Positions 1,327 through 19,549 of a DNA stretch of 21,076 nucleotides are shown one piece after another. Under the pieces are notes generated by a model, which was given only the letters and a program-made list of their open reading frames with translations, made no database searches and had not been told where the DNA came from. How positions within the stretch are numbered: the stretch's first letter is position 1; every line of letters starts with the position of its first letter. A program made the translations under genes and the position numbers. The stretch spans positions 1-21,076 of the forward strand of contig CAMHBE010000003.1 in the NCBI GenBank assembly GCA_946183095.1, written 5' to 3'. Source of the stretch: an uncultured Clostridia bacterium. Lineage in GTDB: Bacteria > Bacillota > Clostridia > Oscillospirales > Ruminococcaceae.

Positions 1327-1546
1327 TTATTTTTTAGTCAAGGAGAGCAGATAGGTGATGTAGGAAGCATCTTTCTGCCTGTCTGCTGTACCCGATGTGG
1401 AGCGCGCCGCATATTGCTTTATTGCAAGTCTACGCAAGTTCCGGCGGCGTGCTATGCCCCCACGCCAAGCGTGGCGCCCGCCGCGGAGGCGAAAATCTAA
1501 AGCGTCAGCGTTCTCTCGGTTATCTGTCAGCTCTTATCTGTCTCTG
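1327..1546 (-). repeat. Intergenic repeat element, copy 2 (minus strand, overlaps GHKL-ATPase gene 3' end)
   Basis: This is the inverted partner of copy 1. Read on the minus strand it begins inside the last codons of the GHKL-ATPase gene, passes its TGA, then shows the head GAGAGAACGCTGACGCTTTAG, a CGCC..CGCGGCGGGCG block (about 1478-1496), the CCACGC-TTG-GCGTGG hairpin, the CGCCGCCGGAACT block and a GCGGCGCGCTC tail. It lacks the 83-nt multi-hairpin section of copy 1 and has a 19-nt block there instead. Short open frames here are spurious. Confidence 0.85.
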
Positions 1547-4500
1547 CGCTCTTCTCCACAGTCTCTGCGGGTCTTAGATTATCTTCGACCCACTTAGCGG
1601 CGAGGAGCGGGGAGATGATGATGTCGAGCTCGCTCTTGCCGGAGTCGAACATTACTTCGCCGGGAGCGTTGGTGTTGCCGCCGAGCACATCATTCGTGTA
1701 CTGCGACCTGTAGGTGATATGGCAGAACAGGAATTCGGGCGGGATAAGATCTGCTGTCTGTATCTCATGCAGCCAGCGTATCGGTGACATACCGCCGATG
1801 CTCACATTAGTTATCAGCCAGCCGCCGGAAACAGCGTTGTCGTTCGCGCACAGATAAAGCGAAAATCTGAACGTTTCTTCGCTGTCCTCCGTGAGAACTT
1901 CTACCTCGAAATCCTTCAGATCAAAGCAGTTTATCGCCCTCGACTCGAAACCGCATATCGGGCAGCATCCACCATAACCGAACAGCTTTCCGTTGACATC
2001 TTTCGCAAAATAGTTGCGGTAATTGCGGCTCTCGCGGAACTTCACAAACGCACTGCACTGCGCCCGCAGATACTTGAATTCGTCCTTCGTTATCGTCGGC
2101 AGCGCCTTCAGATAATACGGCACCTGATCGGGAATGACCTTGTTCGGCTCCTCCGCTGTCAGGTAATGCTTGCTGAGCAGCTGGTCGCACTTGCCCGTGA
2201 TGACATATTCAGCCACATCCGCAAAGTCGGGTTTCGTGTAATCGGCACGCAGCGCGATATACTTTACCGCCTTGTCACGCATATCCTGCGTGATCTCCTC
2301 GCCAATCTCCACAATTTTCACTATCTTGCCGGCTTCGTCCACCAGCGCGACTCTGTCCGTTTTAAGATCGCAGATATAGAGCATTTCCGCTCTCTTCGCT
2401 ATGACCTCGGCAGTCAGTGTCTCGCTGCCGAACATCTTCGTCAGCAGTGCGGGGTCGAACGAATAACGGCTCTTGGTGTGCTCAAAATCGAACGTTCTGC
2501 CGTTGAGCATACCGCACTTTATCAGCATTCCCATATCGCCGATAAGATCTACAAGATCGGCGTTGGAAACATTCGGCGGTATCATGAACTGCTTGTTGTA
2601 TGCACAGAAACGATAACGCTTGTTGATATCGAGCTGCAGCGTGATCTTGCCGCCCTGCTCCTTTATCTCCTTTAAGAACGTCATCGTGTCCTTGCCCTGC
2701 GTGAACGAGTTTATGAGCATCGACACAACTTCGTTGTAGTTCTGGTGCGTGTCGAAACGATGCTGACGCTTCTGTATCGCACGCATAGCGTTGTCAAGAT
2801 TCTGTATGTCCATTTTGGACACTTCATAGCGCTGCTGCTCGTCACCGTGCGAGATATAGAACTGATAGTACTTCATTACTATCTTGTAATCTTCGCGGTA
2901 GATCTCGTCATACATCGCAAGGAGCTTTTCAAGTTCCTCATCGTTGTGGACGATGTTGTCCTTCATGAATTCTCCCGCCATTTTCTCCGCGACGGACGTG
3001 AACCCATAGTACAGCATATTGTCCGAACGGTTCGGCGATGCCTTCGAGTCAACATAGAACGTGCTGCCGCCGTGCAGGAACTCATACAGATACTCTCTGC
3101 CCGTGGCGGAGCTGTCCTCGTTCTCCCACTCGTAACCGACATAGATTATGCGGTCGTCGAGGTCGGAGAGCTTATCGCGCATATCTTTCAGCGCATCCTT
3201 GACATACTTGTCATACGCTGTGCCGTTGACGTGTTCGACCTGCGGGACGTGCTCCGCAAGGCTCAGATATCCGCGCTCTTTCAGCGTTTCGTAATCCGTC
3301 GGCTGTGTCTCGCCGGGATAGATGAGGGAGATGCTGTTCTGGAATTTCGGCTTTATCTCCTTGCCGAATTTGCTGGTCTTTATGAAATTCTTGAAAAATT
3401 CAAAAGCGTAGGATTTCGGATAGAAGAAATAACGGTTCTTCGCGTTCTGCACGGGCTGCATATCAAGCACAAAATACTGCTTGTAAGCCTCCACCATTTT
3501 CTGCAGGTCGCTCTGCAGGTGCTTCGTGACCTCGTTCTCGCTGTCGTGCCGGATACCCGTTCTGTGAGGCGTGATATACTTGTTCGGAACGCTGATAAAG
3601 AACGCGGAGAGGTGCTCATTGATGAACGCCTCGTTGTTCTCCTTGTACAGACCGGTAAGCTCGTATGTGGAGAAGTAGTTGTATTTCTGCACCAGCAGCT
3701 TTACTATCTCGGCGCGCTTGCCGCTCGCTACAGCGTATGGTATCAGATAAGAATAGCCCTCGGATTCGTAGCAGAGGAAGTCGATGATGCTCTTGCCGTT
3801 TTGCAGGAAGCGTATCATCGGGTTAGCGTCGCCCTCCTTCTGGTACTGCATGATCTTATAGACCGTCTTCATCTGCTTATCGACCATTACGGCGATATTG
3901 AAAGTACGGTCGGGGGATTCTTCGAGCTTGCGCGCGTCCCGGATATCGAGCACCTTTTTCCTGTTGAACGCGAAGCACAATTCCATGAGGTTCATGTAAT
4001 TGCCCTTCTTGTCGGTGAGGGTGAGGAAGTTATCCATGATCTCGTTGAAATCGTCACCGCGCACCTTGAAAACGATCTCCGTCCCCATGAACTGCGAACC
4101 GAAAAGGTCGAGTTCGAGTATCTTGAGCGTACCGTTATCGTTCTTTATCTTGAAGCTGAAATTGTTGGATTTGAGCGAGAGCCACTCAACGTTGAGGAAC
4201 ACGCTCTTTGCACCGACACCGAAACGGCCTTCACGGGTCTTGGACGCGTCCACCTCGCTGCGTCCGAAGCTGAGGTAGTAGAGTATCTGTTCCATGGTGA
4301 AGCCCACCTCGTTGTAGGTAAGGCTTACCTGATGCTGTGCGGTGCTGAAATTCATGATGACTTTGACATCCTTCGTCTCGTAGGAGCAGCCGAAGGTGTT
4401 CTGCAGCAGCTCACGAAGGATGCTCTCTTTCGGGTAATCATTGATGCTCAGCAGAGTATTGAATACCGTTCTGCCCTGGAATGCCTCGTTGAAGTAATCC

Positions 4501-4670
4501 ATGAGCGGGGCGCTGTCGGAGCTTCCCGTGAACAGTACGGTCTGCACCTTTTTGAGTGCGGCTTCACGCGCTTCGTTATCGCCTTCGCCGTGCGCGACAT
4601 AGAAATCGCCTATGTGCTTTTTAAGTTCGGCAGCTATGCGTTCGCGCTCTTTGGTATCTTCATAAGCCAT
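1527..4670 (-). CDS. Large protein with N-terminal sacsin/NOV-like GHKL ATPase domain and C-terminal Cys cluster
   Basis: 1047 residues. The N-terminal third carries Hsp90-like (GHKL) signatures: the N-box ILRELLQN (84-91, with E87 and N91), an NEVGF box (120-124) in place of the usual DxGxG, a serine-containing lid LSFGRSEVDASKTREG (133-148) and GRFGVGAKSVF (149-159). The Asn-type second motif followed by a G.S.K lid and GxFGVGxKSVF resembles sacsin and plant NO VEIN-type ATPases rather than MutL, gyrase or histidine kinases. The middle is long and unrecognised. Near residues 902-907 a CCPICG motif, with further Cys at about 914 and 941, suggests a zinc ribbon. The start is supported by a GAGGGGG ribosome site and lies 1 nt after the stop of the SNF2-like gene, so translation is probably coupled. 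The last codons (AETVEKSAETDKS) come from the repeat. The function is unknown; the pair could act on nucleic acids or protein complexes, possibly in defence. A 652-codon open frame on the other strand is a shadow. Confidence 0.8.
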   Translation of the reverse strand: MAYEDTKERERIAAELKKHIGDFYVAHGEGDNEAREAALKKVQTVLFTGSSDSAPLMDYFNEAFQGRTVFNTLLSINDYPKESILRELLQNTFGCSYETKDVKVIMNFSTAQHQVSLTYNEVGFTMEQILYYLSFGRSEVDASKTREGRFGVGAKSVFLNVEWLSLKSNNFSFKIKNDNGTLKILELDLFGSQFMGTEIVFKVRGDDFNEIMDNFLTLTDKKGNYMNLMELCFAFNRKKVLDIRDARKLEESPDRTFNIAVMVDKQMKTVYKIMQYQKEGDANPMIRFLQNGKSIIDFLCYESEGYSYLIPYAVASGKRAEIVKLLVQKYNYFSTYELTGLYKENNEAFINEHLSAFFISVPNKYITPHRTGIRHDSENEVTKHLQSDLQKMVEAYKQYFVLDMQPVQNAKNRYFFYPKSYAFEFFKNFIKTSKFGKEIKPKFQNSISLIYPGETQPTDYETLKERGYLSLAEHVPQVEHVNGTAYDKYVKDALKDMRDKLSDLDDRIIYVGYEWENEDSSATGREYLYEFLHGGSTFYVDSKASPNRSDNMLYYGFTSVAEKMAGEFMKDNIVHNDEELEKLLAMYDEIYREDYKIVMKYYQFYISHGDEQQRYEVSKMDIQNLDNAMRAIQKRQHRFDTHQNYNEVVSMLINSFTQGKDTMTFLKEIKEQGGKITLQLDINKRYRFCAYNKQFMIPPNVSNADLVDLIGDMGMLIKCGMLNGRTFDFEHTKSRYSFDPALLTKMFGSETLTAEVIAKRAEMLYICDLKTDRVALVDEAGKIVKIVEIGEEITQDMRDKAVKYIALRADYTKPDFADVAEYVITGKCDQLLSKHYLTAEEPNKVIPDQVPYYLKALPTITKDEFKYLRAQCSAFVKFRESRNYRNYFAKDVNGKLFGYGGCCPICGFESRAINCFDLKDFEVEVLTEDSEETFRFSLYLCANDNAVSGGWLITNVSIGGMSPIRWLHEIQTADLIPPEFLFCHITYRSQYTNDVLGGNTNAPGEVMFDSGKSELDIIISPLLAAKWVEDNLRPAETVEKSAETDKS

Positions 4671-4671
4671 G

Positions 4672-6642
4672 TCAGATCACCCCCTCGTTGTATGCTTTTA
4701 TGAACTCGGCGTAGGAACCGCCTATACCGAGGTTTTTATGCCAGTAGATCCAGATATTGTACAGCACGGCGGGTTTCATGGCATCCGGGATAGCGTTTAC
4801 GGCATCCTTGATGTACACGAAATCGTTCTTGCCGTTCACCGCTTCTTTGAGCTCCTTCTTCGCGTTGTTCAGACCGAGGTTGAACGGGTTTCCGTCGAGA
4901 TACCCCGCGAACTGTTTGAATTCGTCATTTCTTGCGGTATTATGCGGTATGGTCTTTATTGCCATATCCTTGTCGAAGTATGAGTAGCCGGAACGTATCT
5001 GCTCCACCTTTTTGGTGATAGCCGTGAGCATCGCCGACTTGTCTATCTCCTTATCTTTTATGAGATCCGAAACGCCGAGAGCCTTTGCGAGAGTTTCGAG
5101 CTTGCGCTGTGAATACTCGTGTGTTCTCGCGGCGGTGGTGATATTTCTCGCGGCGGGGATATTGTAGTCCTGACGGAAGCGGGAGATGATGTCGAAGCTC
5201 GAACCTACCGCGCCGGTATAGTCCGCAACATACTTGATGTCCGCTATCATCTCCGCGAGCATGACTTCGATACCGGGTACGGCGAACAGTATATTGTCCG
5301 AGGGGACGTTCATCCTGAACGCCTTGTAGAGATTGCCGGCAAGCGCTCTGCCGAGGACGCGGCTGTCGAACAGTCCGTTATCGTCGAGGAACACGATGAA
5401 TTCGGGTCTTCCCTGCTTCGGAGAGAAGCCTCTGCGCATATAGCGCTGCTGTAGCTCAACGGGGCTGTCGGGGAGCTCGTAGTTTATTATATGTGTTATG
5501 GGCGTGAAGATACCGATATTCTCGCTGAGCTTGTCACCCGCGAGAACTACTCTTATGCGTCTTGCGTTCTCCGTTTCATACCACTGTTTGAGCTGTCTTA
5601 CGTCGAAGCGCGTCTTTTCGAGGTAGAAGATGCTGGATGTCTTTTCGTAATATATCGAAGAGAGCACCTTTTCGATATAGTCAACGGTAGCTTCGGACTT
5701 GAAGTACACGATAGCGGTCTTGTCGTCAGAATTCATGATGCCGTCTATGATATCGAGGAACTTTTCGAGCTTCTTATCCTTGTTTTTGAGAGTTTCGGCA
5801 TCGGAGCGCGTGAAGTTCGGCTTCTGGTAGATGCTCCTCTCGGGAAGATTGTACTCCTCAAAGATATTGCCGCCGTGGGAATAACGGCTTCCCGCCTGCT
5901 CCTCGATATGGAGGTTCTGGGGGATATCAGACTCGGGGAAAGAGTAGTTCACGACGGTGAGCGAGCCGCCTTCCGTTTCCTCTTTCGGATAGTTCACGAA
6001 GGGGGAACCCATGGTGAACTGCATCACAGTCTCGTCTATATTGTAATCATCGACGGTCTTTGACTTTGCGTCGTCGCTGAGCAGCGATTTTACTATATCG
6101 CGCAGTCCTTCCGGAGCCGATGTATATTCCGAAGGATAGGGCGCGAAAAGGAGCAGCTTCTCGGTCTTCATGCCGAAGTTATCGGTGTAAAGCGTGGGGA
6201 TTATGCCGTCGGGGGAACCCGCAGCGTCTATTATGACAAGATCCCACAGTATGCCGCTGTTCCTGATAGGCGCAAAAGCGGAGCCTTCGCCTTCCGCGAG
6301 CACGGATTCATCGAGCAGCATAAGGTTTGAAGTCTCGGGGCTGAAAAATGTTACCGCATCATGTGCGGGATTTACGAACTTGAATTCCAGACCTATGCCC
6401 TTGAGCAGGCACAGATACCAGCTCTCCTTGCTGCCGAGCGGGCAGATTATAAGGATATTCGGTTCTTCTTTCTTGTTGGCAGTGTCAAGTATGCACAGCT
6501 GTGCCTTATCGGCTTTTCCCTCGCCGTAACCGCTCATATCTATGCAGTACCCGAACTTTTCAAGCTTTTCGGGGATGCTGAAATAGAACGGGTTGTGTTC
6601 AAGATTGCCGGATGTGATCCATTTTAAATCGTTAGCGTTCAT
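4672..6642 (-). CDS. SNF2-like helicase-fold protein with degenerate ATPase motifs
   Basis: 656 residues from the ATG at 6642, chosen because GGAAAGGGTGG lies just upstream; an ATG at 6684 would put this ribosome site inside the gene and coincide with the likely transcription start. The second RecA-like lobe is recognisable: motif IV-like KTAIVYFKSEATVDYI (308-323), motif V-like GDKLSENIGI (369-378), and HIINYELPDSPVELQQR then YMRRGF (384-406), matching the SNF2/RapA pattern in which Q-R-x-x-R carries the arginine fingers (Q399, R400, R403). The first lobe is weak: GYGEGKAD (38-45) where GxGKT is expected, so K43 is kept but the Thr is Ala; NILIICPLGSKESW (62-75) resembles motif Ia; VIIDAAG (136-142) replaces DEAH, losing the catalytic Glu. 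ATP hydrolysis may be impaired. Its own promoter precedes it and the GHKL gene follows directly, so the two form an operon and probably a complex. I cannot assign a pathway. Confidence 0.75.
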   Translation of the reverse strand: MNANDLKWITSGNLEHNPFYFSIPEKLEKFGYCIDMSGYGEGKADKAQLCILDTANKKEEPNILIICPLGSKESWYLCLLKGIGLEFKFVNPAHDAVTFFSPETSNLMLLDESVLAEGEGSAFAPIRNSGILWDLVIIDAAGSPDGIIPTLYTDNFGMKTEKLLLFAPYPSEYTSAPEGLRDIVKSLLSDDAKSKTVDDYNIDETVMQFTMGSPFVNYPKEETEGGSLTVVNYSFPESDIPQNLHIEEQAGSRYSHGGNIFEEYNLPERSIYQKPNFTRSDAETLKNKDKKLEKFLDIIDGIMNSDDKTAIVYFKSEATVDYIEKVLSSIYYEKTSSIFYLEKTRFDVRQLKQWYETENARRIRVVLAGDKLSENIGIFTPITHIINYELPDSPVELQQRYMRRGFSPKQGRPEFIVFLDDNGLFDSRVLGRALAGNLYKAFRMNVPSDNILFAVPGIEVMLAEMIADIKYVADYTGAVGSSFDIISRFRQDYNIPAARNITTAARTHEYSQRKLETLAKALGVSDLIKDKEIDKSAMLTAITKKVEQIRSGYSYFDKDMAIKTIPHNTARNDEFKQFAGYLDGNPFNLGLNNAKKELKEAVNGKNDFVYIKDAVNAIPDAMKPAVLYNIWIYWHKNLGIGGSYAEFIKAYNEGVI

Positions 6643-6689
6643 GCGACCACCCTTTCCAATGGGTATATACCTATAATGTCTCAAAGTAC

Positions 6690-6718
6690 ATTATACCGCT
6701 TTTTAACGTTTATTGCAA
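6690..6718 (-). promoter_or_regulatory. Promoter of the SNF2-like/GHKL operon
   Basis: On the minus strand TTGCAA (6718-6713), a 17-nt spacer and a perfect TATAAT (6695-6690). The predicted transcription start is near 6683, giving a leader of about 40 nt to the ATG at 6642. Confidence 0.75.
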
Positions 6719-6881: not shown

Positions 6882-6920
6882 CAAGAAAAATTCCCGGAAA
6901 CGTAACTGTTTCCGGGAATT
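6882..6920 (-). terminator. Rho-independent terminator of mscL
   Basis: A perfect 13-bp stem, AATTCCCGGAAAC (6889-6901) with GTTTCCGGGAATT (6908-6920), loop GTAACT. On the minus strand it is followed by TTTTTCTTGC. It lies 15 nt beyond the mscL stop and separates mscL from the SNF2-like operon. Confidence 0.9.
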
Positions 6921-9892: not shown

Positions 9893-10909
9893 ATGCCGAA
9901 TAACGCCGTGACCGCAAAAGCACGGGCAGTCCACGGGAAACTGCTCACAAAAGACGATTACATGATACTCATACATAAGGGGACTATCCCCGCGGCTGTG
10001 AGCTACCTCAAGACAAAGCCCCTCTACACGCAGGCATTCTCCGAAACGGATGAAGCCGTTATACGCCGCGCACAGACGGAGTTCCTGATAAACAAGAACG
10101 TTTTCGACAACTACCTGCGTATTTGCAGATTCTCGGTCGATATCAAAAAGGGCGTCAGCACCTTCCTGATACGTCAGCTCGAAGCTGAACAGCTCATAAA
10201 AGCTGTCACCGCCGTGCATCTCGGACAGCAGGACGGTTTCGTGACCGCGTTCCCGGAGTACATCTCGGAGAGCCTGTCCTTCGACCCCATGAAGACAGCG
10301 GGGGCAGGGAGCCTCGCGGAGACTGCCGCCGTGCTGAAAGGGACGATGTATCACCGCCCCCTCGCGGGACTGCTCACAGACCCGTCGCCCGATATAAACC
10401 GCATAATAACGACTATAAACGTGTGCTATATAAAGTGGGCGTTCGAGCAGATAAACGCGGGAGAAAAAGGAAAGTCCCGCGAACGCATAAAGGACTTCTT
10501 CCTCCGCAAGGTCGATACGGACAACCTGCTTATGTGCCTGCGCATGAAAAGCGCGTTCGGGCTCAGCGCCGACAGGATAAGCGAACTTCTGATACCGTAT
10601 CACAAGCGTGTGCGGCAGAGCATGATAGACGACGCGATGAAAGCCGCAGACCCTGTATCCGCACTTCGCGACCTGTTTATCCGCACAAGACTTGCCGTAA
10701 GCGGCGGCACCGATATTCCCGAGGTGGATATCGGACTTGCGGACTTCCGCTACTTCCGCCACCGTCTCGCGGTCAGCACCAACGAAACGGAGTCACTGTA
10801 CTCGCTGATGATGCTGTTCCGCGCGGAGAGCACCAACCTGTGCAGGATAATCGAGGGGCTGAGATACGGTCTTCCGCCGGAAGAGATAGAGAAATACCTT
10901 ATATTATAA
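9893..10909 (+). CDS. ntpC: V-type ATPase subunit C (AC39/d-type)
   Basis: 338 residues, the normal size. This soluble, funnel-shaped subunit sits on the K ring and takes the central shaft (D-F), coupling rotation to the membrane ring. It is alpha-helical throughout and has the family hallmarks: an N-terminal KARAVHGKLLTKDDY segment and a C-terminal AESTNLCRIIEGLRYGLPPEEIEKYLI block typical in pattern of archaeal and bacterial C subunits. The ATG at 9893 follows a near-perfect AAAGGAGGTG (9875-9884). Its place directly before subunit I differs from the I-K-E-C order of Enterococcus and Thermus. Confidence 0.9.
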   Translation: MPNNAVTAKARAVHGKLLTKDDYMILIHKGTIPAAVSYLKTKPLYTQAFSETDEAVIRRAQTEFLINKNVFDNYLRICRFSVDIKKGVSTFLIRQLEAEQLIKAVTAVHLGQQDGFVTAFPEYISESLSFDPMKTAGAGSLAETAAVLKGTMYHRPLAGLLTDPSPDINRIITTINVCYIKWAFEQINAGEKGKSRERIKDFFLRKVDTDNLLMCLRMKSAFGLSADRISELLIPYHKRVRQSMIDDAMKAADPVSALRDLFIRTRLAVSGGTDIPEVDIGLADFRYFRHRLAVSTNETESLYSLMMLFRAESTNLCRIIEGLRYGLPPEEIEKYLIL

Positions 10910-10978
10910 AAGTCGCCGGTCACGCCGCAAGTATGCGGAGACAGCGATAATACACCGACTATGAAAGGCGGTATGCAA

Positions 10979-13015
10979 ATGGCAATTGAGAAAGTTTCGC
11001 TGGTCGAGATAGAAGGCAGCCTGCGAAAGATCAACAAGACGCTGATAAAATGCTGCGAGAGCGGATGTTTCCACATGAACCCGCCGCCCGACACATCAAA
11101 GACAGAGCTTGAAGCTAAAAATCTGCGCGACAAGGGCGTTTTCGAGCGTATGGTCAAACGCACGAAGGCGCTTGCGGACAGTCTCGGAGTAAAGCTCGAT
11201 GAGAATGTGCAGTACGACGATATCGAGTACAGCGTCAGCATCGACTTCAAGAACTACCTCGACGAGATAGACGGGATGCAGCGTGAGCTGTCCGAGGAAA
11301 AGATGAAGCTGAATTCTTCACTGCGCTCGGAAGGCGCTATCTACCGGAATCTGACACAGCTCACCGGATTTGACGCGGATTTTGCGGAACTGCTGGCGTG
11401 CAGATTCGTCAAGTCGCGTTTCGGAAGGATCCCGAACAGCAGCATCAAGCGGCTGTCGTTCTACAGCTCGAAAATGTTCTTCTTCTACCCCTTCAATCAG
11501 GAAAAGAACTATACATGGTGCCTGTACCTCACGCCCGTGACGGAAGCCGACAGCATCGACTACCTGTTCAGCGCCGTCGGTTTCGAGCGCACCAAACTGC
11601 CCGAATACCTGAAAGGCAGCTCCGAAGAGGCGATACAGAAGCTGCTGGAGCAGATGGAAGCCGAAAACAAGCGCATCACCGAGATAGATACGCAGCTCAA
11701 AGGCATAGCGGACAAGGAGAGCGTGAAGCTCTCGAAGGTCTATGCAAAGCTCAAAGCTATAGACAACAGCTACGAGCTGCGAACGAGCGTGATCGTGCTC
11801 GGATCGCGCTTCCACTTCTCGGGGTACGTCCCCACAAAGGAGATACCTCGATTCAAAGCTCTGATAGGCGATATCGGCGACGTTGACATGACATTCCGCG
11901 ACACTCTGCCCGACGAACAGGCTCCCGTGCGGCTGAAGAACAACAGGCTGTTCAGACCGTTCGAGATGTTCGTGAAGATGTACGGGCTTCCTGCCGCGAA
12001 CGGCATCGACCCGACCCCGCTGGTCGCTGTGACGTATATGCTGCTGTACGGCATGATGTTCGGCGATGTGGGACAAGGGCTCTGCATCATGATACTCGGC
12101 ATTATACTCTCGAAACTGACGAAAAACGGACTTGCGCCGATAATGACGCGCATAGGTCTGTCCAGCGCTGTGTTCGGACTGCTGTACGGCTCGGTATTCG
12201 GAGATGAGGAGCTGCTCAAAAACTTCGCGATATTCAGGATGAAGCCGCTCTGGTCGATGATGTACAAGTCGGCGCCGGAAAACGTGTTTGAAGCGTCCAA
12301 CCTGTTCCTGATAATGGCGCTCGTCGTCGGCGTATGCCTGATACTGCTGACGATGATAGTGAACATCGTCGTGAGCCTGCGGATGAAGGACTATGATTCC
12401 GGCATCTTCGGCGCGAGCGGCATCTGCGGATTCGTGTTCTACGCGTCACTGCTGGCTGGGCTCGGCTGCAATATAGTGCTGCACGTTGACATCATGAACC
12501 CGCTGTACATCATCTGCCTTATCGTTCTCCCGCTTGCGCTGATATTCTTCAAGCACCCGCTGCTGGATCTCATGGCATCAAAGGGCATGAAGACCGTAAG
12601 CACCGTCAATAACGGCGGCAATATCGACACGGGACTGAAAAAGAAGCTCGATTCGCTTAATGACAGTCCCGCTAAGAAAAAGACATCGGTGGGAATGTTC
12701 ATCATCGAGGGCATAATCGACCTGTTCGAGACTTGCCTTACCTACATCACCAACACGATGTCGTATCTGCGTATCGGCGGATTCGTACTGAGCCACGCCG
12801 GTCTGATGATGGTATTCAGCATCATCGCGGGGATGTTCAGCGGCGTGGGCAGCATAATAGTGCTCGTTATCGGAAACATCTTCGTTACAGGATTTGAAGG
12901 CTTCATAGTCGGGATACAGGTACTGCGTCTCGAATTCTACGAACTGTTCAGCCGTTTCTTCAAGGGCGGCGGCATACCGTTCAGAAGCGTATCAATAAAC
13001 TCAAAGGCAGCGTAA
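10979..13015 (+). CDS. ntpI: V-type ATPase subunit I (a-type stator membrane subunit)
   Basis: 678 residues from the ATG at 10979, chosen because AAAGGCGG lies 8 nt upstream; the ATG codons at 10961 and 10973 lie before or too near that site. The N-terminal half (to about residue 330) is the soluble stalk-contact domain with long helices. The C-terminal half has about eight membrane helices, beginning with LVAVTYMLLYGMMFGDVGQG. The conserved ion-path arginine is visible in SYLRIGGF (Arg598), and the GFIVGIQVLRLEFYELF and GGGIPF blocks near the end are family signatures. The subunit forms the two half-channels through which ions reach the K ring. Length and motifs are those of an intact subunit. 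Confidence 0.95.
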   Translation: MAIEKVSLVEIEGSLRKINKTLIKCCESGCFHMNPPPDTSKTELEAKNLRDKGVFERMVKRTKALADSLGVKLDENVQYDDIEYSVSIDFKNYLDEIDGMQRELSEEKMKLNSSLRSEGAIYRNLTQLTGFDADFAELLACRFVKSRFGRIPNSSIKRLSFYSSKMFFFYPFNQEKNYTWCLYLTPVTEADSIDYLFSAVGFERTKLPEYLKGSSEEAIQKLLEQMEAENKRITEIDTQLKGIADKESVKLSKVYAKLKAIDNSYELRTSVIVLGSRFHFSGYVPTKEIPRFKALIGDIGDVDMTFRDTLPDEQAPVRLKNNRLFRPFEMFVKMYGLPAANGIDPTPLVAVTYMLLYGMMFGDVGQGLCIMILGIILSKLTKNGLAPIMTRIGLSSAVFGLLYGSVFGDEELLKNFAIFRMKPLWSMMYKSAPENVFEASNLFLIMALVVGVCLILLTMIVNIVVSLRMKDYDSGIFGASGICGFVFYASLLAGLGCNIVLHVDIMNPLYIICLIVLPLALIFFKHPLLDLMASKGMKTVSTVNNGGNIDTGLKKKLDSLNDSPAKKKTSVGMFIIEGIIDLFETCLTYITNTMSYLRIGGFVLSHAGLMMVFSIIAGMFSGVGSIIVLVIGNIFVTGFEGFIVGIQVLRLEFYELFSRFFKGGGIPFRSVSINSKAA

Positions 13016-13048
13016 TGCGCCAAAATACATTTCGGAGGACATAAAACA

Positions 13049-13483
13049 ATGTTACTTTACTTATTACCTCTTTTTGCACTCGCTATGATAATCGTTCCGC
13101 TCGTTGCCGCGATCCGCAAAGCACACGCCGGCATTGCTTTCAGCCGCAAGAAGACGATACTGCTGAACGGCGGTCTGTTCATGGGCACCATGATACTCAT
13201 GACCATATTCCTGCCGATACTCGCAGCCGCGGAAGGTGATCCCGAAGCTGCTGCCGCTGCCGGAAAGACTGTCGGCGACGGCATGAAGTACCTCGCAGCC
13301 GCGCTTCCTACCGGTCTTGCTACTATCGGTACAGGTATAGCGGTCGGAAATGCCGCATCCGCGGCTATCGGAGCCGTGAGCGAGGACGAAAAGACCTTCT
13401 CAAAGGCGCTTATCTTCGTTGCGCTGGGCGAAGGTGTCGCTATCTACGGACTTCTCGTATCTATCCTGATACTCAACGGTTAA
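13049..13483 (+). CDS. ntpK: V-type ATPase subunit K (c-ring proteolipid)
   Basis: 144 residues with four hydrophobic segments (about 2-22, 38-60, 81-110, 118-142). The ring subunit carries the ion across the membrane. The second hairpin is canonical: LPTGLATIGTGIAVGNAASAAIGA (87-110) and FVALGEGVAIYGLLVSILIL with the ion-binding Glu128. The first hairpin does not look like a c-subunit hairpin, so there is one carboxylate per four helices. Compared with Enterococcus NtpK, the sodium ligands Gln110 and Thr64/Gln65 have no counterparts (Val99 at the Gln110 place), which favours proton coupling; this is inference. The ribosome site CGGAGGAC supports the start at 13049. Confidence 0.93.
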   Translation: MLLYLLPLFALAMIIVPLVAAIRKAHAGIAFSRKKTILLNGGLFMGTMILMTIFLPILAAAEGDPEAAAAAGKTVGDGMKYLAAALPTGLATIGTGIAVGNAASAAIGAVSEDEKTFSKALIFVALGEGVAIYGLLVSILILNG

Positions 13484-13492
13484 GGTGATGCA

Positions 13493-13801
13493 ATGAAATG
13501 CTTTCTCATAAGCGATAACGTCGATACGCAGATAGGTATGCGTCTCGCCGGGATAGAGGGCGTTGTGGTGCATAAGCGGCAGGAGGTGCTCGATGCGCTG
13601 TCGGCTGCCGTTTCCGACCCCGACAACGCCGTTATATTCGTGACCAAGCTGCTCACCGACCTGTGCCGCAGCGAGATCTCGGAGATGAAGCTGACACTCC
13701 GCAAGCCGCTCATAGTCGAGATACCCGACCGCCACGGAAATGCCCATATCGCCGAAACTCTCGCCTCTTATGTCAGCGAAGCTGTCGGCATAAAGATGTG
13801 A
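13493..13801 (+). CDS. ntpG: V-type ATPase subunit F
   Basis: 102 residues, the normal size for the small Rossmann-like F subunit of the central rotor (NtpG in Enterococcus naming, AtpF in others), which binds subunit D. The opening KCFLISDNVDTQIGMRLAGI and the VIFVTKLLTDLC strand fit the family pattern, as does the C-terminal helix. It starts 9 nt after the stop of ntpK, whose TAA overlaps the AAGGTGATG ribosome site, so the two are tightly linked. Confidence 0.9.
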   Translation: MKCFLISDNVDTQIGMRLAGIEGVVVHKRQEVLDALSAAVSDPDNAVIFVTKLLTDLCRSEISEMKLTLRKPLIVEIPDRHGNAHIAETLASYVSEAVGIKM

Positions 13802-13805
13802 CGAT

Positions 13806-13832
13806 GCGGCTATATGCGTAACGGGCAGCCGC
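13806..13832 (+). other. Intra-operon hairpin between subunits F and E
   Basis: GCGGCT (13806-13811) pairs with AGCCGC (13827-13832) over a 15-nt loop. No T tract follows. It may protect or process the mRNA between the two genes, or have no role. The F-E gap of 68 nt is otherwise empty. Confidence 0.3.
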
Positions 13833-13869
13833 GCGCTTTACCACTACACTACTGGGGAGATGATCTTCC

Positions 13870-14457
13870 ATGGATGTCAATACAAAACTTGAAAAGATGC
13901 GGGAGCAGATAATGGCTGCCGCCGAAGCGGAAGCGAAAAAGACGCTTGCCGACGCGGAAAAGAAAGCAGGGGAGATGCTCGAAGAAGAAAATGAGCGCAT
14001 CATCGCCGAACAGAACCGCTCCTTGCTTGCAAAAGCATCCCGCGCCGAGAGCGATGAACGCAAGCGCGTTTCCGAGAGCAAATTCGCCGCGGACAGAAAA
14101 GTCCTGCTGCACCGCAACGCCCTCGTGAACAGCTTCTTTGACGAGATCCGCGGCGAGCTTGAGGATCTTACCGATACGGACAAGTACCGTTCGCACCTCG
14201 AAAAGTGCGCAGAGCTTGCCGACAGCCGCGAAAAGATGACTGCGGACACTGCGGTGTACTGCCGCAAAAAAGATGTGAAGACCGCACAGGAAGTGCTGAA
14301 AAAATACGGCATAAGAGTGGAGACCGACAGGAACATCACCCTCGGCGGTCTTATCTTCAAGTACCCCGAAAAGGGCATATTCATCGACCTTACGCTCGAC
14401 AGCGCGTTCGAGGCGCAGCGTGAGGCGTTTTCCGCAAGATCGGAAATGCAGCTGTGA
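13870..14457 (+). CDS. ntpE: V-type ATPase subunit E (peripheral stalk)
   Basis: 195 residues. The N-terminal 90 residues are a right-handed-type coiled coil rich in Ala, Glu and Lys (AAAEAEAKKTLADAEKKAGEM), the C-terminal half a globular head-binding domain ending in the family-like GGLIF.Y..KGI.IDLTLDSAFE pattern. It pairs with the G/H-like subunit to form the peripheral stalks linking subunit I to the A3B3 head. The start at 13870 has GGGGAGATGAT upstream. In many related operons E lies before C; here it sits between F and A. Confidence 0.9.
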   Translation: MDVNTKLEKMREQIMAAAEAEAKKTLADAEKKAGEMLEEENERIIAEQNRSLLAKASRAESDERKRVSESKFAADRKVLLHRNALVNSFFDEIRGELEDLTDTDKYRSHLEKCAELADSREKMTADTAVYCRKKDVKTAQEVLKKYGIRVETDRNITLGGLIFKYPEKGIFIDLTLDSAFEAQREAFSARSEMQL

Positions 14458-14471
14458 AAGGAAACCTTTGA

Positions 14472-16223
14472 ATGAAAAATACCATATATGCGATAAACGG
14501 TCCCGTTATAAAGATACGCGAGACGAAGGATTTCGCCATGCGCGAAATGGTCTATGTGGGAAAAAAGCATCTTATCGGGGAAGTTATCGGCGTAAACGAC
14601 AAGTTTACCACCATTCAGGTATATGAAAATACCGCCGGACTGCGCATAGGCGAGGAAGTGGAAGGCTCCGGCAGCCCCATGAGCGTAACGCTGGGTCCCG
14701 GTATCATCTCAAATATCTTCGACGGTATAGCGCGCCCGCTCACCGATATGCGAAAGACCGACGGCGTGTATGTCACGGAGGGCAGCGATATCCCCACTAT
14801 CGACCCGGAGCGCGTGTTCGATGTGAAAGTGACCGCAAAGCCCGGCGACGAGCTTACCGCGGGGCAGATATACGCACAGTGCCCCGAGACCGAGCTTATC
14901 ACCAACTATGTCATGGTGCCGCCGAACATAGCAAAGTGCAGAGTGACATCTGCCGCCCCCGACGGAAAATACAAGGCGGAAGATACTATAATAAAAGTGG
15001 ATGTGAACGGGGACGAGATACCGCTCACGCTCTGTCAGAAATGGCCGATAAGAACGCCCCGTCCCGTCACCCGCAGAATACCGATAGATACCCCCCTTAT
15101 CACGGGTCAGAGAGTGCTTGACTCGATAGTTCCCGTCGCAAAGGGCGGTACTGCCGCGATACCGGGAGGATTCGGCACCGGCAAGACAATGACCCAGCAC
15201 CAGATAGCTAAGTGGTGCGACGCGGATATAATCGTGTACATAGGCTGCGGCGAGCGCGGCAACGAGATGACGCAGGTGCTCGAAGAATTCGGCGAACTTA
15301 TCGACCCGAAGAGCGGCAAGCACCTCACCGACCGTACCGTGCTGATAGCGAACACGTCAAATATGCCTGTTGCGGCGCGTGAAGCGTCGATATATACGGG
15401 TATCACCATAGCCGAATACTACCGCGACATGGGCTACGATATCGCTATAATGGCGGACTCCACGTCCCGCTGGGCGGAAGCTCTGCGTGAGATATCCGGA
15501 CGTCTCGAAGAGATGCCCGCCGAAGAAGGCTACCCCGCGTACCTGCCCTCCCGTCTCGCGGAATTTTACGAGCGTGCGGGCAATTGCAGCGTACTCTCCG
15601 GCAAGCGCGGGAGCGTCACGATAATCGGCGCGGTATCGCCTGCCGGTTCCGACTTCTCCGAGCCGGTAACGCAGAACACCAAGCGTTTCGTTCGCTGCTT
15701 CATGGCGCTCGACAAGCCGCTGGCGTATGCGCGTCACTATCCCGCGATAAACTGGCTGACCAGCTACTCGGACTACATCCCCGATTTCGAGAGATATTAC
15801 GAGCAGAACGTGGGCGAGGATTTTCTTGCGGTAAGGCAGGAGATAAGCAATATCCTGCTCGAAGAAAACAAGCTCATGGAGATAGTAAAGCTGATAGGTT
15901 CGGACGTTCTTCCCGATGACCAGAAGCTGGTGCTGGAGACTGCAAAGGTGATACGAGTAGGGTTCTTACAGCAGAACGCGTTCCACAAGGACGACACGTT
16001 CGTGCCCATGAGCAAGCAGCTCTCCATGATGCGCACTATCCTGCGGCTTTACCACAAGTCGGAGGAAGCGCTGAAACGCGGTATCGCCGTTGCGGACATC
16101 ATCGCGACGGGGCAGTTCGACAAACTGATAAAGATGAAATACGACATCCCCAACGATAAGCCGGAGATGTTCGATGAATACGACCGCTCGATAGATGAAA
16201 CTATCGGCGCACTCGGAAAGTAA
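14472..16223 (+). CDS. ntpA: V-type ATPase catalytic subunit A
   Basis: 583 residues, full family length. It hydrolyses or synthesises ATP in the A3B3 head. The Walker A motif is GGFGTGKT (232-239), the catalytic glutamate lies in GCGERGNEM (E261), and Walker B plus the following block reads IAIMADSTSRWAEALRE (324-340, D329). The non-homologous insertion that distinguishes A from F-type beta is present between about residues 110 and 185. The start follows AAAGGAAACC. Two residues in the P-loop (GGF rather than the commoner G.FG.GKT preceded by Pro) vary but keep the GxxxxGKT pattern. Confidence 0.97.
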   Translation: MKNTIYAINGPVIKIRETKDFAMREMVYVGKKHLIGEVIGVNDKFTTIQVYENTAGLRIGEEVEGSGSPMSVTLGPGIISNIFDGIARPLTDMRKTDGVYVTEGSDIPTIDPERVFDVKVTAKPGDELTAGQIYAQCPETELITNYVMVPPNIAKCRVTSAAPDGKYKAEDTIIKVDVNGDEIPLTLCQKWPIRTPRPVTRRIPIDTPLITGQRVLDSIVPVAKGGTAAIPGGFGTGKTMTQHQIAKWCDADIIVYIGCGERGNEMTQVLEEFGELIDPKSGKHLTDRTVLIANTSNMPVAAREASIYTGITIAEYYRDMGYDIAIMADSTSRWAEALREISGRLEEMPAEEGYPAYLPSRLAEFYERAGNCSVLSGKRGSVTIIGAVSPAGSDFSEPVTQNTKRFVRCFMALDKPLAYARHYPAINWLTSYSDYIPDFERYYEQNVGEDFLAVRQEISNILLEENKLMEIVKLIGSDVLPDDQKLVLETAKVIRVGFLQQNAFHKDDTFVPMSKQLSMMRTILRLYHKSEEALKRGIAVADIIATGQFDKLIKMKYDIPNDKPEMFDEYDRSIDETIGALGK

Positions 16224-16235
16224 GGGGGCGTTTGC

Positions 16236-17609
16236 ATGAATATCCAGTATTCGGGACTTGCCGATGTAAACGGACCTCTGGTCGCACTCGAAGGGGTCAG
16301 CGGCGTTTCATACGAGGAGATCGCGGAACTGCACCTCGAAGACGGCACAAAGCGCACAGGACGTGTCGTACAAATGGAAGGCGACAAGGTGATACTCCAG
16401 GTGTTTGAGGGAACTTCCGGGCTGTCGCTCGACAATACCCGCACCGTGTTCAAGGGAAAACCGCTGGAGATACCGCTCAGCACCGAGATGCTCGGACGCG
16501 TGTTCAACGGCGCGGGGCAGCCCGCCGACGGTCTTGGCAGCGTTTTTGCGGAGAAGTACGGCGACATCAACGGACGTGCGCTGAACCCGGTGGCGAGAAG
16601 CTACCCGCGAAACTACATACACACGGGCATAAGCTCCATAGACTGCCTTATGACGCTTATCCGCGGACAGAAACTGCCGATATTCTCCGGCTCCGGTCTG
16701 TCCCACAACAAGCTGGCGGTGCAGATAGTAAAACAGGCGCGTATAGCCGACGAGAGCGGTCAGGATTTCGCGATAGTGTTTGCCGCAATGGGCGTGCAGA
16801 ACGACGTTGCGGATTACTTCAAAAGGGAATTTGAGCAGGCGGGCGCGAGCGGCAGAGTCGTCATGTTCCTGAACCTGTCCAATGACCCGATAATCGAGCG
16901 TATCCTGACGCCGAAGTGCGCGCTCACCACTGCGGAATATCTCGCGTTCGAGAAGAATATGCACATTCTCGTCGTTATGACCGATATAACGTCTTATGCC
17001 GAAGCTCTGCGTGAGTTCTCATCGTCAAAGGGGGAGATACCGGGCAGAAAGGGCTATCCGGGTTATCTGTACTCCGACCTTGCGGCAATGTACGAGCGCG
17101 CGGGAGTAATTGACGGCTCCACGGGTTCGGTAACGCAGATACCGATACTGACGATGCCTAACGACGATATCACCCACCCGATACCCGACCTTACGGCGTA
17201 TATCACGGAGGGGCAGATAGTGTTCGACAGGAATCTCGACAGCGAGGGCATATATCCCGGTCTGTCGGTGCTGCTGTCACTGTCGCGACTGATGAAGGAC
17301 GGTATAGGCGAGGGTTACACGAGAGCAGACCACAGCGATGTTGCGAACCAGCTTTTCGCGGCGTATGCAAAGGTGCAGGATGCCCGCTCGCTCGCGTCGG
17401 TCATCGGCGAGGACGAGCTTTCCGAGACAGACAAGAAATATATGCGGTTCGGCAAGGAATTTGAGCAGCGTTTCCTGAAACAGGGTCAGGACGAGAACCG
17501 CAGCATGGATCAGACCCTCGAACTCGCGTGGGATCTTCTCTCCCTCCTGCCGAAGTCCGAACTCGACAGAATGAACGCAAAGCTGATAGATGAGCATTAC
17601 AGAGGGTGA
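16236..17609 (+). CDS. ntpB: V-type ATPase regulatory subunit B
   Basis: 457 residues, normal length. The non-catalytic partner of A in the hexameric head. As expected it has no true Walker A: the place is taken by [16 protein letters not shown]. The family block [16 protein letters not shown] and the ITQ-like [21 protein letters not shown] segment are clear. It begins 12 nt after the stop of ntpA with AAGGGGGCG as ribosome site. Its stop TGA (17607-17609) coincides with the beginning of a 28-bp tandem repeat. Confidence 0.97.
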
Positions 17610-17685
17610 GAGATTCGCCGCCGCTTGAGAGTTCGGAGAGATTCGCTGCCGCTTGAGAGTTCGGAGAGGTCGCTGCCGCTTGAGA
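17608..17685 (+). repeat. 28-bp tandem repeat, about 2.8 units, at the ntpB stop
   Basis: Units at 17608-17635 and 17636-17663 are identical except for one C/T, and a third unit with a 1-nt deletion runs from 17664 to about 17685. The core is CGCTGCCGCTTGAGA. The same core, CGCTGACGCTTTAGA, is the single head module of intergenic element copy 2, so this is an expansion of the element's head. Confidence 0.85.
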
Positions 17686-17790
17686 TTTTTTCGCCTACGC
17701 GGCGGGCGGGGCACTCGGTGCCCGGGCGTTTTCGCCGCCGGAACTAGTTCAAAAAATAAGGAAGTGCTGTGCGGCGGCGCTCGATGCACA
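17664..17790 (+). repeat. Intergenic repeat element, copy 3 (divergent sequence, same architecture)
   Basis: The order of modules matches copies 1 and 2: GAGAGGTCGCTGCCGCTTGAGA head, TTTTCGCCTACGCGGCGGGCG, a triloop hairpin GGGCAC-TCG-GTGCCC (17709-17723), CGCCGCCGGAACT, then AATAAGGAA and a GCGGCGGCGCTCGATG tail. Conserved modules are close to copy 2 while the hairpin stem differs completely. The remainder of the 332-nt gap (17790-17925) is AT-rich with no gene; an ACTATA-AC-TATAGT dyad lies at 17841-17854. Confidence 0.75.
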
Positions 17791-17941
17791 CAGTTTTATT
17801 TATATGAAACAGTGCGCCCGACGCAATGTTTTATCGCAAAACTATAACTATAGTGTGGATGCTTTGAGTGTATTTTGCTCACTATCTGCATTCTATGAAA
17901 ATTTTTGTCCTTATATTTCGCTCATGTGAGGAGTTGACACA

Positions 17942-18592
17942 ATGGCGCAGCAGGTCTTTGCAACCAAAGGAAATCTGATAAACGCGAAACATTCACTCAA
18001 ACAGGCGCAGCTCGGCTATGAGCTAATGGACCGCAAGCGCAATATCCTGATACGCGAAATGGTCATGCTCACCGATAAGGCGAAAGAGCTCAGCAGCGGG
18101 CTCGAACAGACATTCGCGGACGCTTATATGGCATTGCAGAACGCAAATGTCATTGACGGGGTGCTTACCGAAAAGACGCTGAGTATGCCCGTTGATACCT
18201 CCGTTTCCATAAGCTACCGCAGCGTCATGGGCATAGAGCTCCCGGAAGTTTCGGGCGGTGACGGCACACCCGAACTGTGCTACAGCATAGCAGATACGGA
18301 CTCCAGCTTCGATAAGGCTTACGCGGGATTTATGAAAGCCAAAATGACAGGGCTGATGCTCGCTGAGATAGAGAACAGCGTTTACAGGCTTTCCGTCGCT
18401 ATCCGGAAATCGCAGAAACGCGCGAATGCACTCAAAAATATCCTTATCCCCATGTACCGCGAACAGGTCAAGTTCATTTCGGAAGCCCTCGAAGAAAAAG
18501 AGAAGTTGCTCCAGTTGAAGAAGCTCCTAAAAAAGCAACAAAAGCCAAGAAAGAAACAGCTTAAATTTTTCAAAACTATTGACTTTTGCTGA
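17942..18592 (+). CDS. ntpD: V-type ATPase subunit D (central shaft), C-terminal frame probably shifted
   Basis: 216 residues in the open frame. Subunit D is the antiparallel coiled-coil shaft that rotates inside A3B3. The N-terminal TKGNLINAKHSLKQAQLGYELMDRKRN-type helix and the C-terminal KSQKRANALKNILIP block are classic. The start has GAGGAG 9 nt upstream. From about nt 18500 the frame gives an unusual basic tail ending LKFFKTIDFC and its stop lies inside the promoter of the next gene. The -1 frame instead reads EVAPVEEAPKKATKAKKETA and stops at 18562-18564, ahead of the promoter. A missing base near GAGAAG (about 18500-18505), a sequencing error or slippage at the A run would explain this. 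The functional core is unaffected. The gap to ntpB is filled by repeat DNA rather than the usual tight spacing. Confidence 0.88.
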   Translation: MAQQVFATKGNLINAKHSLKQAQLGYELMDRKRNILIREMVMLTDKAKELSSGLEQTFADAYMALQNANVIDGVLTEKTLSMPVDTSVSISYRSVMGIELPEVSGGDGTPELCYSIADTDSSFDKAYAGFMKAKMTGLMLAEIENSVYRLSVAIRKSQKRANALKNILIPMYREQVKFISEALEEKEKLLQLKKLLKKQQKPRKKQLKFFKTIDFC

Positions 18593-18607: not shown

Positions 18608-18700
18608 AATTTTTGGGTCAACAGTGCATTGTGATGCTGTCAGGCTCCCTTGCACACAACTTTTATGTATTTGCAAATCAATTATCAGGAGGAAATCATT

Positions 18701-19549
18701 ATGAATTTCAAGAAAACACTTGCAGCTGTCGCAGCTACCTGCGTCGCAGCTGCCGCTGTATCCGTTTCGGCAAGCGCAGCTCTCACAGTTGTGTCCGATC
18801 CTAACCCCGCTCTTACGTCCAGCACAAGTATGTGGATGGAAAAGATCTATGTTCCCCAGGAAAATATCGACTTCGGTATTGACTGCCTGAACATGGGCTC
18901 CGTAAAGTTCACATTCACTCCCGAATCCCCCGAGGATTTTGAAGGTGCAACAGGCGGCGGCGTTGTTATCTCCAGCGGTCCTGTACTCAGCACAGATCAC
19001 AACTGGGCTTCCTCAAACTTCTGGGGCGTTTATGACGAAGAGCATGAGATCTACGGCAGAGAAAGCGAAGTTGACGAAGCTAACCCCATCGCTATCCAGA
19101 ACGAAGGCGACTATATCTACAGCCTCACAGTAAACGTTGATGACTCCAACTGCGTTCTCGAAGATTCCTATGCAGATCCGAGCGCTTATGTACAGATCGC
19201 GTTCCAGGAATGGGGTCAGGAAGTGTTCACGGATATCAAGGTGCTCAGCCTTGAGATATTTGACAAGAGCGGCAACCTTATGATAAAGTTCGACGAGAAG
19301 GGCAACCCCGTTGACGCTTCCACAGCAGCAGCTCCCGCAGAAGATGCGGCTCCGGCAGAGGAAGCTCCCGCAGAAGAAGCAGCTCCCGCAGAGGAAGCAG
19401 CTCCGGCTCCCACAACAGGCGATGTTGCAGCAGCTACAGACAGCTCTAAGGGTTCCCCCGACACCGGTATCGGTGATGTTGCGGCAGTAGCAGGTATCGC
19501 AATTGCAGCAGCAGGCGCTCTCATCGTAGTTGCAAAGAAGAGAAAGTAA
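18701..19549 (+). CDS. Secreted cell-surface protein with C-terminal SPDTG/membrane/KKRK anchor
   Basis: 282 residues from the ATG at 18701, which follows CAGGAGGAAA; an upstream in-frame ATG at 18650 has no ribosome site. A signal peptide (MNFKK then Ala-rich core, likely cleaved after VSASA, about residue 26) is followed by a domain of about 170 residues of beta-sandwich character (many Trp, Tyr, Asp, Gly; FWGVYDEEHEIYG, YVQIAFQEWGQEVF) that I cannot name; a carbohydrate-binding role is possible but unproven. Then comes a Pro/Ala/Glu linker (APAEEAAPAEEAAP), SPDTG, a 20-residue hydrophobic segment and KKRK, the layout of a sortase-type sorting signal with Ser in place of Leu. Own promoter and terminator make it monocistronic. 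Codon use (GCA, GCT, more TTC, AAG) looks optimised compared with neighbours, suggesting high expression. Confidence 0.85.
   Translation: MNFKKTLAAVAATCVAAAAVSVSASAALTVVSDPNPALTSSTSMWMEKIYVPQENIDFGIDCLNMGSVKFTFTPESPEDFEGATGGGVVISSGPVLSTDHNWASSNFWGVYDEEHEIYGRESEVDEANPIAIQNEGDYIYSLTVNVDDSNCVLEDSYADPSAYVQIAFQEWGQEVFTDIKVLSLEIFDKSGNLMIKFDEKGNPVDASTAAAPAEDAAPAEEAPAEEAAPAEEAAPAPTTGDVAAATDSSKGSPDTGIGDVAAVAGIAIAAAGALIVVAKKRK

Follow-up and report, generated by a model that had tools for sequence, protein, structure and literature searches.

A conserved SNF2–GHKL gene pair in uncultured gut Oscillospirales and its relation to accessory SNF2–GHKL modules

The window analysed here, a stretch of 21,076 nucleotides from an uncultured Clostridia bacterium (contig CAMHBE010000003.1), carries on its minus strand two large genes whose products have different nucleotide-binding folds. 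P2 (4672–6642) encodes a degenerate SNF2 protein of RapA/DrmD type with 656 amino acids, and P1 (1527–4670) encodes a sacsin-type GHKL ATPase of 1047 amino acids with a C-terminal zinc-ribbon motif. The stop codon of P2 and the ATG of P1 are separated by a single base (4671), in agreement with a preliminary description made from the sequence of this DNA. A longer P2 frame was also listed (4672–6684, 670 amino acids from a TTG), and homologues favour the ATG at 6642 over this TTG. A chance origin of the two reading frames is excluded, because both are long frames under purifying selection and relatives are found at 110 loci. In the following, core denotes P2–P1 and its counterparts, and accessory denotes the related SNF2 and GHKL proteins outside this group.

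The preliminary description called the pair a promoter-driven unit. Upstream of P2, a promoter-like site TTGCAA-17-TATAAT is present at 6690–6718 on the minus strand, solely as a consensus match (10/12), and a terminator-like stem of 13 base pairs, a pattern match at 6889–6920 on the minus strand, follows mscL and separates it from the P2–P1 unit. Both scans returned numbers not clearly above chance, with 7 promoter-like sites versus 5.7 in shuffled sequences and 10 terminator-like sites versus 7.2, so that it is only their positions that support the sites at 6690–6718 and 6889–6920. No Rfam family reached its gathering threshold in the window. Those neighbours of the pair that returned matches, MscL and the V-ATPase, are housekeeping proteins, as described before. 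Beyond mscL lies a gene for a GDSL-type hydrolase, and a V-type ATPase operon spans 9893–18592 (AC39 subunit, subunit I, subunit C ring, E, A, B and D). It is followed at 18650–19549 by a protein with a weak, below cut-off match to an NPXTG cell-wall anchor. At the other end of the window, a flotillin-like gene (1–975; FloT model, below cut-off) is convergent with P1 and cut by the contig edge.

P1 matches the sacsin-type family NCBIfam NF047352 with an E-value of 5.9e-5 (23.4 bits, compared to a cut-off of 50 bits) and Pfam HATPase_c_3 with 0.016, both below the curated cut-offs, and a profile search of the PDB gave no relatives at E-values up to 1. The sacsin-like GHKL fold proposed earlier holds. 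The N-box ELLQN (4398–4412; this and all following motifs on the minus strand) retains E87 and N91 in 197/197 aligned rows, and the G2 lid GRFGVGAKSVF (4197–4229) retains the glycines and the lysine of GxxGxGxK in 199/199 rows. Motif names and catalytic residues, for P1 as well as for P2, are assigned as we take them to be for these families. The G1 motif YNEVGF (4299–4316) differs from that of the relatives: its Glu is found in 199/199 core rows, while the wider accessory GHKL family has Asp in all 84 aligned rows. Judged from this exchange, the invariant Glu could weaken nucleotide binding, and P1 itself might be inactive.

The C-terminal Cys cluster, which had also been pointed out, is real. 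A first knuckle CPIC (1953–1964) and a second knuckle CAND of CxxD type (1839–1850) contain C903 and C906, present in 199/199 core rows, and C941, present in 198/199; the last position of the second knuckle is His or Cys in 22/199 rows. The pattern CxxC-n-Cxx[C/D/H] occurs C-terminally in 198/199 core and 85/85 accessory rows and is absent from the first three quarters of every row, so the zinc ribbon common to core and accessory proteins is stated here as a pattern count. A zinc ribbon would be expected to fold at this site in P1. Row counts for P1 and P2 (194, 199, 85 and the like) combine overlapping sets of loci and database proteins with duplicates kept, the homologues being the best 120 of 249 in one set and the best 120 of 175 in the other. 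P1-type loci and accessory proteins of up to 900 amino acids were dropped, as were P2 rows of up to 500 (loci) or 600 amino acids (database proteins).

For P2, profile searches returned Pfam Helicase_C (E 0.0031) and NCBIfam DrmD (1.3e-7), again below curated cut-offs; the score against the DISARM protein DrmD (NF038317) is 30.4 bits, where the cut-off is 610 bits. Motif I is reduced to the remnant GEGKA (6511–6525), where accessory relatives have GTGK[T/S]. Across the core rows the Lys is retained in 184/194, and K[T/S] is found in 43. In the motif II remnant WDLVIID (6226–6246), D139 is present in 194/194 rows and the Glu that should follow is replaced by Ala in P2; DE occurs in 43 of the 194 rows. 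Not a single row (0/194) combines K[T/S] in motif I with DE in motif II. The Gly of motif V, present in both accessory SNF2 rows of the same alignment (2/2), is Asp in 194/194 core rows (D370; 5533–5535), and the motif VI remnant ELPDSPVELQQRYMR (5434–5478) retains R400 in 194/194. Core P2 thus lacks the complete SNF2 ATPase motifs that DISARM DrmD has, which confirms the degenerate SNF2-like character assigned to it earlier, and its motifs predict that ATP is not hydrolysed. Canonical motifs are the norm in the helicase superfamily. We therefore infer that the core P2 is the derived form relative to the accessory SNF2 proteins.

Against the PDB, the P2 profile scores best with E. coli RapA, with an E-value of 4.1e-7 for the whole chain. 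RapA is a DNA-dependent ATPase. Its part in the recycling of RNA polymerase is outlined in excerpted text of PMC8666675. P2 could accordingly be pictured as a RapA that has lost catalysis and docks on the polymerase, with P1 remodelling stalled complexes. RapA chains being the closest solved relatives speaks for such a factor, but the best RapA stretch covers profile positions 34–143 only and fails a threshold of 0.01 by itself, and among the accessory SNF2 relatives the DpdE and DrmD models outscore RapA. We regard this reading as unlikely.

The core pair is a constant property of a clade. In a mixed panel of 60 genomes, P1 was detected in 35/36 genomes of the window's genus, its own genome included, and in 0/24 genomes representing 24 further families of the order. 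The counts for P2 were identical. The genus genome without P1 (G016) is 76% complete and the one without P2 (G006) is 86% complete. Among genus genomes of at least 90% completeness, taken together with the window's own at 72%, P1 is present in 43/43, in a few as fragments, and the sister genus (g93) has it in 28/28. A wider sample of the family gave matches in 7/148 genomes and 4/94 genera, and the weak match in one of these four genera (g94, genome G128) proved to be an accessory form. The same mixed panel argues against P1 as a replacement for MutL; this candidate was rejected with mutL present in 59/60 genomes.

A scan of named species genomes yielded 110 loci, of which 80 were kept. By title, these 80 are uncultured bacteria or metagenome assemblies. 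Most bear the name Ruminiclostridium, Oscillospiraceae or Clostridia, and many come from mammalian rumen or gut. Two loci titled Roseburia sp. (L069) and Bacteroides sp. (L087) carry the core pair nevertheless and are probably mislabelled metagenome bins. In 76/80 loci, P2 is the gene immediately upstream of P1 and has the same orientation, and the remaining four have only 0 to 112 upstream bases; at least 2 of these 76 have a P2 truncated by the end of the contig. A predominance of unpaired homologues would have spoken against the fixed pairing proposed in the preliminary description, and the survey found the opposite. The spacing between P2 and P1 ranges from overlap to 224 bases, with one value of −125 that probably stems from automatic start-codon choice.

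The surroundings of the pair are far less constant. On the 3' side, genes of the dcw cluster (MraZ, RsmH, FtsL, PBP, Mur ligase and MraY, labelled by BLAST to the identified genes of locus L037, with a weak match for FtsL) follow on the same strand in 21/80 loci. Genes for TIM or iPGM are located 5' of the pair in 12/80, and two loci of the sister genus that were compared share a downstream gene set of Rnf type, as identified in L038. A role tied to the cell-wall and division cluster, with the pair preceding mraZ-rsmH-ftsL-pbp-mur ligase-mraY in many members, would account for these 21 loci, but other loci, including the window with MscL and V-ATPase and the two sister-genus loci with their Rnf genes, have other or unlabelled neighbours. 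Since the neighbourhood is inconstant, we keep this tie only as a rival explanation, and a very improbable one. With the neighbourhood varying while P2 and P1 stay together, it is the pair itself that appears as the unit being kept.

Phylogenies are in line with vertical inheritance. For 21 of the 24 genomes with a collected P1, the P1 and the P2 tree each share 15/18 internal splits with RpoB and 16/18 with each other; G000 and G021 were left out because no RpoB locus had been collected for them (RpoB of G000 being incomplete) and G020 because no P2 had been, and all trees were built without a mixture model. Supported conflicts exist between an RpoB split (100/99) and a P1 split (87/87), between RpoB (92/91) and P2 (91/94), and between RpoB (75/74) and P1 (95/96). 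Both genes are under purifying selection. Eleven comparisons, two of them of the same genomes, gave dN/dS values of 0.037–0.165 for P1 and 0.074–0.199 for P2; the values are rough, as dS often exceeds 1.

Outside the core, GHKL loci read with their context have an SNF2 gene directly upstream in 8/9 cases, and motifs I, II and VI are complete in 8/8 of these SNF2 partners. The GHKL gene of L143, a weak match of 5.0 bits, has no adjacent SNF2 gene and no zinc-ribbon pattern. Forms of the accessory GHKL protein of L036 are sparsely distributed. This protein has 89 protein homologues, the few named ones coming from Lachnospiraceae, Clostridium, Cellulosilyticaceae, Ureibacillus, Lysinibacillus and Paenibacillus. 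Full-length copies were found in 1/148 genomes of the window's family (f1) and 1/396 of another family (f48), in no genome of two samples drawn from class and phylum (393 and 398 genomes), and on 1 of 72,556 plasmids. A phage origin was rejected on a search with the accessory GHKL protein, of which 50,697 phage records contain no relative; of 30 stretches of viral contigs that fitted a pattern, none was confirmed.

Two of the accessory pairs lie beside restriction-type genes. On the Lysinibacillus capsici plasmid pFN9B (L132, 1192–13081), genes for a PD-(D/E)XK nuclease, a UvrD helicase, an SNF2 protein and a sacsin-type GHKL protein are followed by an integrase and an Eco57I-type restriction gene; the first four may possibly form an unnamed defence system. 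In L194 (4151–11335), the GHKL protein matches the PADLOC model TmtA, a DrmD match is also present, and a type III restriction helicase adjoins. L196 (3786–12150) likewise has a GHKL protein with a TmtA match, and an intact SNF2 helicase gene lies immediately before its gene. L195 and L144 resemble L194 and L196, the two scanned with PADLOC, in having a large sacsin-type GHKL gene after an intact SNF2 gene, and across the four the two genes seem to form a constant unit. In L193 and L197, loci whose surroundings are annotated for the pair and one neighbour, the GHKL proteins have no PADLOC match at 1e-4, and no restriction gene was recognised beside the pair of L036. Two proteins of other kinds were seen upstream of accessory pairs: one of 224 amino acids in L036 (209–883), with no match in Pfam, NCBIfam or PADLOC, and one of 391 amino acids directly upstream in L193 (5899–7074), with no PADLOC match at 1e-4.

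Core and accessory pairs are separate genes, as follows from two genomes that have a core P1 and carry an accessory pair as well: G987 of the sister genus has its accessory pair in L197, and G971, which belongs to the window's genus, has one in L196, both with intact SNF2. By hhalign and hmmsearch, significant homology between the two forms is confined to the GHKL domain (P1 about 73–202) and the SNF2 lobes, and the profile comparison aligned residues 31–203 only. We do not claim end-to-end homology, as both methods support these domains alone. The top-scoring accessory relative differs by protein, the P1 profile giving the TmtA-type protein of L196 (83.7 bits in two domains) and the P2 profile the plasmid SNF2 protein of L132 (78.6). 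The core pair is related to the accessory SNF2 and sacsin-GHKL-zinc-ribbon modules and probably derived from them; descent from a defence system in particular draws on the two contexts of L132 and L194.

The comparison with GHKL/SF2 defence modules made in the preliminary description thus holds for the relatives, the best of which are SNF2 and sacsin-GHKL pairs, two of them beside restriction-type genes. The window pair itself does not behave like a defence module. Defence genes are usually patchy in their distribution, and of an anti-phage system one would expect horizontal movement; the core pair is present in 43/43 and 28/28 genomes, is vertically inherited and mostly follows RpoB. A working anti-phage or anti-plasmid system that became fixed in the clade, with P2 binding invading DNA without translocating and P1 acting as effector or clamp, would be compatible with the matches of P1, P2 and their relatives to the PADLOC models TmtA, DrmD and HmaA (weak ones for the window pair) and with the settings of L194, next to its restriction helicase, and of L132, between nuclease and UvrD helicase on one side and integrase and Eco57I-type gene on the other. 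But besides the fixed distribution, the scanned window proteins yielded neither a nuclease nor a DNA methylase, as noted before for the adjacent genes, and nor did the annotated neighbours in L037, L038 and L042, most neighbours in the 80 loci being unannotated. We assign this alternative a low probability.

The preliminary description considered a core cellular role equally possible. A core role stands, and it is better supported than equal, given fixation in two genera and RpoB-like trees. The two genes are strictly paired, fixed throughout the genus and mostly congruent with RpoB in their descent; P2 has lost the complete SNF2 motifs, and in P1 the N-box and lid of the GHKL site persist. 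Fixation, trees that mostly agree with RpoB, and the lost motor all point the same way, and we therefore favour domestication: with a confidence slightly better than even, we propose that P2–P1 is a domesticated SNF2–GHKL module, now a vertically inherited core pair of an uncultured gut Oscillospirales clade that serves as nucleoprotein-binding scaffold and ATP-gated clamp. P2 and P1 would form a single complex. P2 would no longer translocate but would still bind either double-stranded DNA or, being related to RapA, the RNA polymerase, and P1 would provide a GHKL clamp that opens and closes with ATP, similar to MORC and MutL. Such a complex would have a housekeeping role on the chromosome, where it would clamp, silence or clear nucleoprotein and not cut invaders. 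If this is true, a restriction-type module has become core within bacteria, and of its two ATPases one is conserved and one apparently dead; such a transition would be open to direct study, and this group of gut bacteria would gain an unrecognised core complex.

As in the preliminary description, the exact pair could not be matched to a named system: its scores stay under all curated cut-offs of the libraries searched, and no description of it was found in the literature covered, which left aside most subscription journals and all preprints. Among the named relatives of P1 is the TmtA type, a PADLOC name for which we found no meaning in print. Core P1 scores 39.4 bits against TmtA, with residues 87–180 (about 94) aligned to positions 47–139 of a profile of 1302, far from a match over most of the profile. 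The TmtA-type and similar pairs of L194, L195, L196 and L144 share with the core the order of an SNF2 gene followed by a sacsin-type GHKL gene, and the C-terminal zinc-ribbon pattern is found in 4/4. In contrast to the core, their SNF2 motifs I, II and VI are intact (4/4), the proteins are larger, and in L194 the restriction helicase adjoins. The accessory pairs of L036, L132, L193 and L197 agree with the core in gene order and zinc-ribbon pattern, have the N-box and lid of the GHKL site, and are of similar size. They differ from the core by intact GTGK[T/S], DE[A/C/G]H and QRFGR in 4/4. RapA/HepA would share with P2 the SNF2 fold, on a profile match that is significant for the whole chain and not for its best stretch alone; P2, in contrast, has no complete ATPase site and is paired with a GHKL protein. 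For the GHKL fold, the Shedu protein VcSduA provides a further comparison: its nuclease-fused GHKL ATPase domain is needed for phage defence according to excerpts of PMC12137116, so this fold suits defence as well.

A described parallel is found in the prokaryotic MORC and paraMORC modules, which, like the core pair, encode a GHKL protein together with an SF2 helicase. In the excerpted text of Iyer et al. 2008 (PMC2292703), in which the word sacsin is absent, an SF2 helicase is present in about 70% of prokaryotic MORC neighbourhoods, one class being SWI2/SNF2. The authors propose that MORC-type GHKL proteins work together with SF2 helicases as part of restriction systems, and that eukaryotic MORCs derived from them, restriction-type modules thus being a proposed source of eukaryotic chromatin proteins. 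Unlike the core pair, these modules often include endonucleases and DNA methylases, of which the scanned window proteins, L037, L038 and L042 gave none, and core P2 is degenerate. A more far-reaching thought, which we offer tentatively and consider doubtful, is that the core pair is a bacterial counterpart of eukaryotic MORC/SNF2 silencing pairs: a restriction-type module with its motor disabled, turned lineage-wide into a permanent and perhaps essential clamp on chromosomal DNA. SNF2–GHKL modules as such are already known; what is unusual in P2–P1 is its core status together with its apparently dead motor.
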